Source: Parvularcula dongshanensis
GTDB lineage: Bacteria > Pseudomonadota > Alphaproteobacteria > Caulobacterales > Parvularculaceae
DNA: 64,000 bases
Assembly: GCF_014199615.1 (NCBI RefSeq)
Contig: NZ_JACHOB010000001.1
Location: forward strand, 372,001 to 436,000
Reading direction: 5' to 3'
Of this stretch, positions 17,963 through 54,064 are shown piece by piece; the stretch's first letter is position 1, and every line of letters begins with the position of its first letter. The notes under the pieces are model-generated. The model ran no database searches and was not told where the DNA came from. It saw only the letters and a list, made by a program, of their open reading frames with translations. The translations under genes and the position numbers were made by a program.

Positions 17963-18119
17963 GGACGGCGAGGCCGGGCAGCGTAGGGCGGCTCGCGAAG
18001 CGTGCCGCCGAAGGCCCTCGGCCAAGGGGGCCTGTCGTGGGTGGGGTGGGAGGGGGATCACTCCGCGATCATCGGCGGATGGCAGCGCAATCCTCCGTGC
18101 GACGCTTGCTACTACTGCC

Positions 18120-18308
18120 CTAATCAGCTTTGCTAGACGCCTTCTCTTCAGCAATTAGCTCATGATATCGGCGACGAAATCCCCGGACAGCAGCGTCTGC
18201 CGCCCTCGCGACATGGTCGTCTTCAGACTCCGAAACGTCGAAATCTGCGAGAAGCCGGGCGAGTTCTTCAGCCACATCTTTCTCGATCGGCTTCAGAAAA
18301 GTGGGCAT
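18120..18308 (-). CDS. Small acidic protein, second gene of the Ntn-hydrolase islet
   Basis: This 62-residue protein begins MPTFLKPIEKDVAEELARLL and is predicted mostly helical, with an acidic middle (DVSESEDD) and a charged tail. No family recognised. The ATG at 18308 has GGAGG five bases upstream. A longer version starting at 18368 would overlap the preceding stop (ATGA) but lacks a Shine-Dalgarno. It follows the proteasome-like gene on the same strand and shares its AT-richer composition, so the two probably moved and act together, for example as an accessory, substrate or inhibitor (inference). Confidence 0.6.
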   Translation of the reverse strand: MPTFLKPIEKDVAEELARLLADFDVSESEDDHVARAADAAVRGFRRRYHELIAEEKASSKAD

Positions 18309-18364
18309 CGCTTCCTCCATATCGAGGCCGAGATAGGCTGGATCCTGATTCTGGCATCTTTTTC

Positions 18365-19618
18365 TCATTTTAGATACCGTGAATTGAAGGAGGGATTAAT
18401 GCCAGATTCAAAGTAGTGTTTTCGCTTTATCCAGACGAACCCATCGCCCTTCGAAATTGTGGCAACATCTATCGGACCGCCAACAGTTTCTATGTCTGGA
18501 TTCACCCGCTTGCTAATCTGACTGCTATTAAGTAGAGACTCTGCCACCCCACCAAGATCACTGATTGGAAGGCTTGCGATCGACTTAGTCATCGGCTCCG
18601 TATAGTTCTCGTATCGAAAAATACTGATATCTTTCATGTATTGTTCAAATTGCGACGGAAGAGCTTCCCTGACTTTTTGAAGATAGCCTTCTCTTTGCTC
18701 ATCGTTCAATTCGGTGATTTCAGCGAGTACCTCTGCAGGTATCTGAAGTAATAAGTCGAGTGCGCCTCTAGCCATTTGACTATGGAACTGTGGCGATATT
18801 CCCTCGGTAAGGGTCCTGATCGCGTCCGCATCAGCGAACGGAATAACGTAGCTTTGCTCATCGTGAGAAACACAATGACTTTCACGCAACCACAGGCGAG
18901 CTCGGCCACCTAAATGGCAGTCAACTATATAGTGCCGCAGCGCAGGTAAATACTCGCGCTCTCCAAATCCTGTAAATACAAGGCCGGACTGCTCGGCAAG
19001 CGGTGTCTGTTTCCGGATCAGCAAGCGCACAAGTTCAGCAATTCGGCGCACACGACCAATAGCAAGGTTCTTTGGGATAATTTTTCTTGCCGATTGTAGG
19101 ACCAGATTTTTTCGATCGTCGTAAACACGGCCTACAAAGGCATCATCGAAACCTTCGATATCGTCGAGCTTACGAAGACGTTCGCACTCACCCCCCAGAC
19201 GTCGATCAAATTCCTCTTTGCTTATAACTTCATATTCAGAATTCGTACTCAGTCGAAGAAAATATCGTACAAATATTGAATCGAGGGTAGCTTCAATTGC
19301 TGAGTCTTGAAATATATCATTCTGGGCATTCAGGAAGCGTATAAAATCATTACAATAATCTATCAGATGATCGAATTTCTTCTCACCAAGTTCTCTTCTG
19401 TAAGATTTTACGATTGTTTCCCATGGTATACCAGCTAAAGATACAGCATTATAGAACATAACACCGATTGGCGCATGCTTCGACAATGTGAATATTTTGT
19501 TTGCCGTATTGTAGACTTTTCGCCGAATCTCCCGGTTATGGTATGCCTGTACAGTAACAGCACTATCGGCGGCGATAGACACTCCGAACTTGTTCATAAC
19601 TGCAATTTCGGCTGTCAT
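18365..19618 (-). CDS. Proteasome/HslV-like Ntn-hydrolase with long novel C-terminal region
   Basis: Start chosen at the ATG 19618, with AAAGG eight bases upstream. Removal of Met exposes Thr1 of TAEIAVMNKFGVSIAADSAV. Counting from it, Asp is at 17, Thr at 21 and Lys at 33 (NREIRRK), the same spacing as the catalytic Thr1/Asp17/Lys33 of 20S beta subunits and HslV. KIFTLSKHAPIGVMF continues like the next beta strands. The protein has 417 residues, about twice HslV (~175) or beta subunits (~200); the rest (from about residue 90) is helical and unfamiliar. Codon use and base composition are clearly AT-richer than the neighbours, indicating transfer. An upstream ATG at 19654 is possible but lacks a Shine-Dalgarno and would hide Thr1. 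Confidence 0.75.
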   Translation of the reverse strand: MTAEIAVMNKFGVSIAADSAVTVQAYHNREIRRKVYNTANKIFTLSKHAPIGVMFYNAVSLAGIPWETIVKSYRRELGEKKFDHLIDYCNDFIRFLNAQNDIFQDSAIEATLDSIFVRYFLRLSTNSEYEVISKEEFDRRLGGECERLRKLDDIEGFDDAFVGRVYDDRKNLVLQSARKIIPKNLAIGRVRRIAELVRLLIRKQTPLAEQSGLVFTGFGEREYLPALRHYIVDCHLGGRARLWLRESHCVSHDEQSYVIPFADADAIRTLTEGISPQFHSQMARGALDLLLQIPAEVLAEITELNDEQREGYLQKVREALPSQFEQYMKDISIFRYENYTEPMTKSIASLPISDLGGVAESLLNSSQISKRVNPDIETVGGPIDVATISKGDGFVWIKRKHYFESGINPSFNSRYLK

Positions 19619-19667
19619 CAGTAATACCTTTGCGGAGCATAACTCCATCGCCAAAGCTCATTTCTGA

Positions 19668-19759
19668 GCCTACTTCTCCGCTCGCGCGCCCATCAATGTT
19701 CCTATTCCCTGGATTCGGGCCGGTTTGGCCAGAGTTCGTAGGCACGCGCGTTGTTAGGC
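19668..19759 (-). repeat. Imperfect inverted repeat at the islet border, attC-like in layout
   Basis: Read on the minus strand, the 92-nt segment begins GCCTAACAACGCGCG and ends CGCGCG...AGTAGGC, so GCCTA pairs with TAGGC and CGCGCG with CGCGCG around an unequal centre. An integron attC begins RYYYAAC and ends GTTRRRY; the first matches (GCCTAAC), the last does not (AGTAGGC). It lies between speE and the islet, where an insertion boundary would be expected. Confidence 0.3.
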
Positions 19760-19799
19760 ATGCTCAGAGCCGAACAACGTTCTTAAGCTCGAAAAAGCC

Positions 19800-20684
19800 T
19801 CACCCAAACGCCCCCGTCTCAACCACCCGCCTCACATACGCCGGCAGCGCGAACGCCGCCCTGTGCCCTTCCGGCGTGTAGTACCGGAACTCGAGCCCCG
19901 AGCGCGCGACGCGTTGCGCGATCTCGCCCTCGGCCGGGATGACGCCGCCTGCTCGCGCGAAGCCGAGCGCCATGAGGCCGCCGGAATAGGCGGGGACGGC
20001 GATGGTGTAGAAGGTGACGCTGCCAAAGCTTTGGGCCTGGTTGTCGTGCGCCTTCTTGAGCTCCACGGGCTGCAGGAAAGGGAGCCCGCACTGGCTGACC
20101 ATGATGCCGCCGTCGGTGAGCCGCGCGCGGCAGTCGGCGTAGAACTCCTCCGTGAACAGAACCTCGCCGGGGCCGACGGGGTCGGTCGAGTCGACGATGA
20201 TGACGTCGTACTGCCGCGAGGGGTCCTTCACGAACTGCGCGCCGTCGGCGATCTCGAGCTTGAGCTTCGGATGCTCGAACGCGCCCGCGGAGACGCCCGG
20301 GAACCACTTCTTTGAGAACTCGATCACGTCGGCTTCGATCTCGACGAGGGTGACTTCTTCCACCTCCTCGTGGCGCAGGACCTCGCGGATGACGCCGCCG
20401 TCGCCGCCGCCGATGACGAGGACGCGCTTCGCCGCGCCGTGCTCGAACAGGGGCACGTGGGTGACCATCTCGTGGTAGATGAACTCGTCCGCCGTCGACA
20501 GCTGGATGAAGCCGTTGAGCGCGAAGAGGCGGCCGAAGCGCTCGTTCTCGAAGACGGCGATGTGCTGGTGGTCGATCTCGCCCTCGAAGAGGAGTTCGTC
20601 CACGCGAAGGGCGTGGCCGATCTCGCCCGTGACCTGCTCCTTGAACCAGGTCTCGCCGTCGAGCTTGTAGAGGAAGTTGGTCAT
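19800..20684 (-). CDS. speE: Spermidine synthase (polyamine aminopropyltransferase)
   Basis: The 294-residue cytoplasmic enzyme transfers the aminopropyl group of decarboxylated SAM to putrescine. Motifs: FGRLFALNGFIQLSTADEFI, YHEMVTHVPLF, VLVIGGGDGGVIREVLRH (cofactor site), VDSTDPVGPGEVLFTEEFY with the catalytic Asp. Last gene of the operon ODC-speD-unknown-speE; its ATG overlaps the stop of the small preceding gene (ATGA). Confidence 0.96.
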   Translation of the reverse strand: MTNFLYKLDGETWFKEQVTGEIGHALRVDELLFEGEIDHQHIAVFENERFGRLFALNGFIQLSTADEFIYHEMVTHVPLFEHGAAKRVLVIGGGDGGVIREVLRHEEVEEVTLVEIEADVIEFSKKWFPGVSAGAFEHPKLKLEIADGAQFVKDPSRQYDVIIVDSTDPVGPGEVLFTEEFYADCRARLTDGGIMVSQCGLPFLQPVELKKAHDNQAQSFGSVTFYTIAVPAYSGGLMALGFARAGGVIPAEGEIAQRVARSGLEFRYYTPEGHRAAFALPAYVRRVVETGAFG

Positions 20685-53751: not shown

Positions 53752-53830
53752 AGCTGCGACCGCGCCATCGGCGCGCGCCCCTCAAGTAGCGAGCGATCGC
53801 GAGCGGTAGGGGCAGGAAAAAGAGAGAGGT

Positions 53831-53922
53831 GGAAGGCCGACACGACCCGAACGAGAACTCGTTGCGGCTGCTTCCTTCCGGACCTGACCGGGTTGGCGAG
53901 GCGTCCGTCCGCGCGACCTTCC
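53831..53922 (-). ncRNA. ffs: Signal recognition particle 4.5S RNA
   Basis: The minus strand carries the SRP domain IV core GGTCAGGTCCGGAAGGAAGC followed by AGCC, flanked by complementary arms (CCTCGCCAACCC upstream; CGGGTCGTG downstream) and closed by GGAAGG...CCTTCC. The ~92-nt length is normal for bacterial 4.5S RNA. It pairs with Ffh in co-translational targeting. The location just upstream of dnaX-ybaB recurs in alphaproteobacteria. Exact ends are inferred from the closing stem. Confidence 0.93.
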
Positions 53923-54064
53923 GAGGAGCATGTCGCAAGCCTACTCTCCCGATGCAAGGCCGCAGCGCGCCAACGCTAATCACGCGTTTGTGATCTCGGC
54001 GGTCAGACCTTTCTAAGCCTTCGATCCGATGCTCCCGAGAAGCTGGGGGACAGGTCATCCTGAT

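Follow-up and report, generated by a model that had tools for sequence, protein, structure and literature searches.

Which kind of enzyme is encoded by a 417-residue reading frame in which a threonine directly follows the initiator methionine, and what might it do in a patch of DNA whose composition differs from that of its surroundings? A locus of Parvularcula dongshanensis raises this question, and we analysed it within a window of 64,000 nucleotides (NCBI RefSeq assembly GCF_014199615.1, contig NZ_JACHOB010000001.1, positions 372,001 to 436,000 of the forward strand), whose own numbering is used below. A preliminary description of this DNA had proposed a proteasome-like hydrolase.

A gene pair in an AT-richer islet

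The reading frame of the homologue, hereafter P0001, runs without a break, and a second ORF (P0002) overlaps it by 4 bp, the start of P0002 lying inside the stop of P0001. Judged from the sequence, translational coupling of the two genes through this ATGA overlap is expected. The features of the locus are the following:

18365..19618, minus strand: proteasome homologue P0001, most likely of PMI-4 type (see below), 417 aa, Thr right after the initiator Met
18120..18368, minus strand: small partner ORF P0002, 82 aa, second cistron, position conserved in relatives, sequence very divergent
18365..18368, minus strand: ATGA overlap of the partner's start and the homologue's stop
19613..19615, minus strand: Thr1 codon (numbering of the mature protein; Thr1 is the putative nucleophile), with T in 175 of 176 sequences
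19565..19567, minus strand: codon of Asp17, D in 175 of 176
19496..19498, minus strand: codon of Lys40, which aligns with proteasome Lys33, K in 175 of 176
19517..19519, minus strand: codon for the mature Lys33, whose column has 160 K and 10 R among 176
19627..19631, minus strand: AAAGG, ribosome-binding-like site, 8 nt 5' of the P0001 ATG
18040..19810, no strand: AT-richer islet, edges approximate, drop in GC

The reading frame itself, the choice of the ATG that would expose Thr1, the small partner gene and the AT-richer islet had all been noted in the preliminary description, and each of them stands. The GC content is 0.513 and 0.503 in the kilobases between 18 and 20 kb, against 0.645-0.771 in the window's other kilobases. 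P0001 and P0002 form the only gene pair recognised within the islet, whose right edge is near a spermidine synthase gene. On the side of the spermidine synthase gene, relatives match as far as about 19833; the left flank is not shared with them. Comparison with the genomes of relatives yielded no clean empty site, and a recent insertion in the window is therefore not proven; no convincing flanking repeats were found around the islet.

Just left of the islet, at 17982-18010, there is a 28-base near-palindromic element, which matches, with full identity, two oppositely directed places next to the spermidine synthase gene of genome G003 (L183); the window has a single copy of the element's 23-base core. 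No tRNA gene was detected by ARAGORN in the whole window, and the one Rfam match at gathering score, the bacterial small SRP RNA (RF00169, 59.1 bits, 53825-53925, minus strand), is far from the gene pair. A search of the whole genome with the Pfam model PF00227 gave a single match, the sequence of which reads as HslV; it lies some 423 kb beyond the right end of the window.

The predicted fold is that of a proteasome subunit with two insertions

Sequence look-ups of P0001 in Pfam, NCBIfam, PADLOC and the PDB gave no usable match, and PF00227 itself does not match the protein. An AlphaFold model, for which the input was P0001 and 65 of 80 genome loci (15 being omitted as partial or similar), reached a pLDDT of 90.2 and a pTM of 0.87. 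Foldseek comparison of this model with the PDB listed proteasome subunits in 50 cases out of 50 (the best 50 of 250 at E<=10), three matches falling at E<=0.001. The best one, 1ryp_K, was obtained with an E of 4.7e-4, a probability of 1.00, a target TM of 0.52 and a query TM of 0.27, and its alignment has an rmsd of 17.6 over 400 columns. Among the matches listed, the rmsd is 16-23, the identity 7-13% and the query TM at most 0.27; we read the large rmsd and low query TM as accompanying the insertions of P0001.

In a profile search against the PDB, the Thermoplasma proteasome beta subunit came first, weakly (E 0.012), with cullins close behind (E from 0.017); the latter match a helical insertion and are read as chance, and the N-terminal stretch with the lysine scores just 3.6 bits. 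With hhalign, the family core aligned to archaeal 20S beta with a score of 30.9, the best of 20 column-shuffled controls reaching 19.6, so that this sequence likeness appears to exceed chance. The corresponding probability is just 25.6 (21.5 with the full alignment), and it is 2.3 for the core against 20S alpha, 2.4 against HslV and 0.7 for the full alignment against HslV, the HslV set being shallow. Profile comparison with Ntn-hydrolases, which had been suggested as a check, thus speaks for the 20S beta likeness by its score and not by its probability. Since the profile scores are weak, the fold claim rests mainly on the AlphaFold model and on Foldseek; on this modelled structure, a proteasome-subunit-type fold is supported for P0001, as had been anticipated.

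In the model, helices 105-202 stand between helix 85-98 and strand 211-217 and form a long insertion after H1/H2. A second insertion, helix 306-348, lies between helices 276-300 and 352-372, which would place it between H3 and H4 according to our reading of H3. H1/H2 are present, helices between the early strands are absent, and a short helix (409-415) ends the chain. The size of P0001, described beforehand as about double that of the known subunits, is indeed 417 aa, but most of the residues then called unfamiliar belong to the two helical insertions, and the family with these insertions had been described in silico as early as 2021.

In that study, Fuchs, Alva and Lupas described 22 new proteasome homologues, and many such homologues had previously escaped detection through low similarity (PMC8665760). 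One of their larger groups, PMI-4 ("proteasome homolog with multiple insertions"), has two insertions, a long one following H1/H2 and a second one between H3 and H4. With 501 sequences at 90% identity, it is recorded in Table 1 for seven bacterial columns, for Euryarchaeota and for phages, the bacteria named being Proteobacteria, Firmicutes, Actinobacteria, Bacteroidetes, PVC and Cyanobacteria. PMI-3 also has both insertions, with a narrower distribution in the same table (PMC8665760). P0001 is most likely PMI-4, an assignment made by description: the relatives of P0001 show the broad distribution, phages included, and PMI-4 is the likely name because that of PMI-3 is narrower.

Conserved residues point to a proteasome-like catalytic apparatus

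To describe conservation we used 213 full-length ORFs, of which 176 are distinct, one being the window's own copy (L081). Thr1, Asp17 and the lysine of the Lys40 column are each kept in 175 of the 176, the sole exception being an incomplete row. The residue before Thr1 is M in 148 sequences, V in 14, L in 12 and I in 1 (one row incomplete), which means that a start residue encoded by ATG, GTG or TTG directly precedes Thr1 in 174 of them. Such an arrangement suggests that removal of the methionine would expose Thr1.

Counted from the residue after Met, P0001 does have Thr1, Asp17, Thr21 and a lysine at 33, as reported in the preliminary description, where this spacing was taken to mark Lys33 as catalytic by analogy with HslV and 20S beta subunits. 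That last step did not hold. In 177 rows (P0001 added), the invariant lysine is found at position 36 in 116, at 33 in 23 and at 40 in 10, the window protein accounting for 2 of these 10 rows. The Lys40 column aligns with Lys33 of 20S beta in both HMMER and hhalign, and in hhalign it also meets the matching lysine of 20S alpha and HslV, both matches being very weak. Lys40 can thus be regarded, by alignment and not by measured distance, as the putative equivalent of proteasome Lys33. The lysine found at position 33 in P0001 belongs to a separate column, located at position 29 in 110 rows. Relatives differ in the length of the loop that precedes the lysine; exact Thr1/Asp17/Lys33 spacing is therefore a coincidence and was rejected as evidence. 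The prediction that homologues conserve the three residues is borne out for Thr1 and Asp17, and for the catalytic lysine in the Lys40 column instead of at Lys33.

Another column deserves attention, in which G is found in 114 and N in 51 of the 176 sequences and whose consensus Gly may correspond to the oxyanion Gly47. P0001 has Asn there, which would suit a catalytically dead scaffold using the Ntn fold for binding. Such a scaffold is hard to reconcile with the near-invariance of Thr1, Asp17 and Lys40 and with a start residue abutting Thr1, and we consider it highly improbable. A proteasome-like catalytic apparatus is, in our opinion, almost certain, and we infer that the P0001 family is an active and specific threonine protease.

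Relatives occur on mobile elements and as an apparently retained copy in Parvularculaceae

Among candidate stretches from one representative genome per species, 222 out of 249 encode a relative, and the best 80, which were kept, come from many bacterial phyla and from archaea. IMG/VR gave 140 relatives out of 257 candidates (80 kept), and relatives were found in 13 phage and 10 plasmid records. The feature is labelled "hypothetical protein" throughout, save in one plasmid record that has no annotation there. A DNA search of 5426 E. coli genomes gave 22 with a match to one prophage version; the match covers at least 80% of the query in 9 of them and 12% in the other 13.

Within the window's class, 16 of 289 genomes match, the own genome included and one match being marginal. 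In the window's family (Parvularculaceae), 56 of the 59 other sampled genomes match, via a divergent copy. The own genome has P0001 only and G003 has both types; the divergent copy is absent from the own genome and from G002, G024 and G032. This family-type copy looks like a retained gene, and nothing speaks more strongly against a purely mobile role in conflict than its near-universality, since such retention fits housekeeping at least as well. The mobile accessory function proposed earlier therefore finds support in the phages, streptococcal satellites and plasmids that carry the gene and in its patchiness in the class, but not in the family genomes or in the search for an empty site.

Retention in the family is also what would be expected of a general quality-control protease acting on unfolded proteins like uncapped 20S, the small gene encoding an assembly factor that replaces the propeptide. 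The published analysis is compatible with such a role, for in the parts available to us no co-occurring AAA+ partner is found, ATP-independent roles are discussed, and propeptides are confined to the proteasome beta and HslV subunits (PMC8665760). On the other hand, the gene is patchy in the class and carried by phages and satellites, and HslV is also encoded in the own genome; we consider a general quality-control protease unlikely.

Phage-type settings are cargo-like and no neighbour family is constant

We looked at the position of the homologue in several phage-type records. It stands between antiterminator Q and the lysis genes in a Providencia phage, beside Q and in opposite direction to its neighbours in a prophage of E. 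coli H3, and in another E. coli prophage its neighbours are a repressor-type HTH gene and genes for recombination. In a Stenotrophomonas phage it runs against the lysis genes, in the streptococcal satellite Javan103 it is at the far end, and in Javan85 it is at the end, after the lysis genes. The positions in these opened records are cargo-like.

The neighbour set comprised 277 proteins of 80-1200 aa from 80 genome loci, the nearest two per side as delimited by a simple ORF caller. Some of these proteins match models for R-M, DISARM, Hma, Fic and the like, and others belong to housekeeping families; these are counts without a background comparison, and no enrichment is claimed. Among the top 25 Pfam or PADLOC families of each list, out of 106-174, membership never exceeded 4, and besides the partner no constant neighbour family was found among the families listed for the 277 neighbours. 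P0001 had no match to a known anti-phage system in PADLOC at E<=1. A defence role, which had been put forward, is thus neither shown nor excluded.

On some plasmids, genes for multiubiquitin and ThiF are found no more than about 4 kb from the homologue. We examined nine of the ten plasmid matches, eight of them with gene tables, and both genes were seen in four (L200, L203, L204 and L205); L203, L204 and L205 represent one rhizobial locus type, the homologue match being in two pieces in L205. One further locus (L063) has a ThiF match about 4 kb from the homologue. Multi_ubiq was found in 7 of the 289 class genomes, 6 above the cut-off, and it occurs together with the homologue in one genome only (G118, 1 of 16), on different contigs; queries with ThiF and multiubiquitin gave no match in 11 class loci. 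A ubiquitin-like link as a general rule was therefore rejected, with Multi_ubiq co-occurring in 1 of 16 genomes and ThiF in none of the 11 class loci; the link stands for the four rhizobial plasmid loci and the single ThiF match in L063.

The plasmid loci with both genes extend over 4733-9437 in L200, 8001-14210 in L203, 5274-11751 in L204 and 8001-14203 in L205. The Rhizobium loci continue with a DUF6527-type gene, so named in two of the three, and a ClpP-like gene. They also have an HTH gene, for which tblastn showed relatives directly before the homologue in an Acidobacteriota contig (L017, 9642-9983, E 5e-20) and about 2.4 kb after it in an Actinobacteria contig (L063, 4476-4802, E 2e-35).

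A more far-reaching proposal, which we judge quite improbable, is that the pair forms a self-contained, mobile and ring-free "mini-proteasome" or protein ligase, whose small co-translated partner docks by short motifs and picks what is to be cut or ligated. As a ThiF/multiubiquitin conjugation operon adjoins the pair on some rhizobial plasmids, the pair could, in this proposal, carry out the last step, processing or degradation, of a bacterial ubiquitin-like pathway directed against mobile elements.

A small ORF follows the homologue in nearly all relatives examined

A small ORF lies right after the homologue's stop in nearly all relatives examined. A strict rule (40-170 aa, start between -40 and +60 nt relative to the stop, 200 nt or more of remaining sequence) was passed by 145 of 157 loci (L001-L161), with partners of 41-78 aa in every case; in the same loci, 377 of 851 (44%) other ORFs of at least 250 aa, real or spurious, pass as well. 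Many viral loci are near copies, and the 145 partners correspond to 120 distinct ones. When the large protein was clustered at 70% identity, 94 of 104 clusters passed, and inspection showed that 8 of the 10 failing clusters have an ORF missed by the rule. One is the window itself (L081), whose partner is on the strand outside the scan; in L087 and L137 a small ORF is present and the sequence ends too soon; the partner starts at -58 in L013; and the ORFs of L100, L156, L158 and L160 have 34-37 aa, below the rule. L134/L136 and L055 showed no convincing small ORF.

The dN/dS of the partners has a median of 0.23 and a largest value of 0.5 (23 pairs with dS of 0.1-1.5, the pairs not being independent), indicating that the compared small ORFs are coding genes under constraint. 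A profile built from 43 partners matched 60 of the 145 at E<1e-3 and P0002 at E 4.5, which is not significant; since just 60 match one profile, the partners may not all be homologous. The best conserved kind (k-y-S-m-e-E-f-e-k-y-F-P-k ... l-G-x-x-l-A-x-e-s-L-x-k-i) occurs in archaea, planctomycetes, a clostridium and others. Its Pro is invariant in 35 of 35 aligned partners, a set chosen largely for the FP motif, and this motif is absent from many partners. The model of one partner of this kind (L061) consists of three helices without a compact fold (pLDDT 78.8, pTM 0.34). In PADLOC, P0002 matched just JetC (E 0.0099, 13.2 bits).

The small gene is annotated as hypothetical in the Providencia phage, a streptococcal satellite and an Enterococcus plasmid, and is present and unannotated in E. 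coli strain H3. The family-type copies also have a second gene, of 141-150 aa, in all six cases read and in at least four different settings, as seen from the gene surroundings of L186, L188/L190, L191 and L192. The products of these second genes have a basic, aromatic tail, which ends in FLGIF in five cases and in RFGLF in the sixth. A QxxSxxDFF-like motif is common to the partners in one group of prophages (L089, L099, L107-L111, L113-L118, L120, L126, L132 and L146), and it presumably resembles clamp-binding (PIP-like) motifs.

The large and small ORFs are very probably a functional gene pair. That the partner is a regulator or an adaptor is about evenly balanced in our view; it would then bind the enzyme and regulate it. 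Two other relationships can be considered. In a toxin-antitoxin-like addiction pair, a toxic protease would be restrained by its small neighbour; the adjacent or overlapping two-gene unit, kept together in different settings, is consistent with this, as is the presence of part of the family on mobile elements. However, the larger gene comes first, and no DNA-binding family was recognised in P0002, the only partner scanned, making an addiction pair rather improbable. Alternatively, P0001 could be a connectase-like ligase or transpeptidase with the small partner as cognate tag or substrate. Connectase, a proteasome homologue, does ligate proteins (PMC8665760), and the Pro found throughout the FP-selected partners, together with the low pTM of the modelled one, would suit a tag. 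The model of P0001, with H1/H2 and without helices between the early strands, is unlike connectase, and many partners do not have the motif; a ligase is slightly less probable still than an addiction pair.

A two-gene module as proposed explanation

The reading that we favour, with about even confidence, is a two-gene module consisting of a specific threonine protease and a small regulator or adaptor, carried as mobile conflict cargo. The first gene would encode a proteasome-like hydrolase of PMI-4 type with an N-terminal threonine, from which methionine aminopeptidase would remove Met to expose Thr1, and Thr1, Asp17 and Lys40 would form the proteasome-type catalytic apparatus. The two helical insertions may hinder stacked rings, which would favour specificity in place of bulk degradation. 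The second gene would be read from the same message at the overlapping start, and its small, weakly folded product could bind the enzyme as a dedicated inhibitor, activator or substrate presenter. The pair would travel as cargo, and the most likely targets would be proteins of competing phages or elements, or host proteins during infection. The role in mobile-element conflict is the more tentative part of this module, possible and somewhat doubtful.

What is already known is the enzyme family, in print since 2021 (PMC8665760, as far as available to us); what is new is the small downstream gene as its context. Pairs of this kind are found repeatedly in bacteria, archaea, phages and phage satellites; in phages and satellites, too, the proteasome fold comes with a companion. 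Were the second gene a dedicated one, an orphan enzyme would become a testable two-component system, and a fold that bears a companion has implications for the evolution of unfoldase-free regulated proteolysis (or protein ligation).

Comparison with known systems

P0001 shares with 20S beta subunits the core fold, Thr1, Asp17 (Glu in Thermoplasma), an equivalent of Lys33 and a C-terminal GGxIDVAVI strand, but it is about twice as long, has no propeptide and has its lysine seven residues later. Like HslV, it has Thr1, Asp17 and the lysine column. HslV is compact, 17 extracted sequences having 170-187 aa from Thr1, whereas P0001 has 417 aa and two helical insertions. A separate hslV is present in the own genome, where PF00227 matches HslV and nothing further, and the profile match between the P0001 family and HslV is very weak.

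Connectase and Anbu are both proteasome-like proteins, as P0001 is, and no unfoldase is known for connectase or known to interact with Anbu (PMC8665760, in the parts available). Connectase is characterised by the absence of H1/H2 and by a two-helix insertion between S3 and S4; the model of P0001, in contrast, has H1/H2 and no S3-S4 helices, and thus differs from connectase in both. Anbu has a long C-terminal helix H5, whereas P0001 ends in its short helix 409-415 and carries its helical mass in the internal insertions.

The closest likeness is to PMI-4, with which P0001 shares both insertions, the Thr/Asp/Lys apparatus, the lack of a propeptide and an occurrence in broad taxa and phages. In the available parts of PMC8665760, PMI-4 is presented without a function, a genomic context or a co-occurring gene suggestive of function. 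Among the later literature matches listed, which are mostly open-access and include PMC13022661 (available in part), none concerned the P0001 family or such a pair. Unlike PMI-4 as published there, the P0001 family has a small second gene in nearly all clusters examined.
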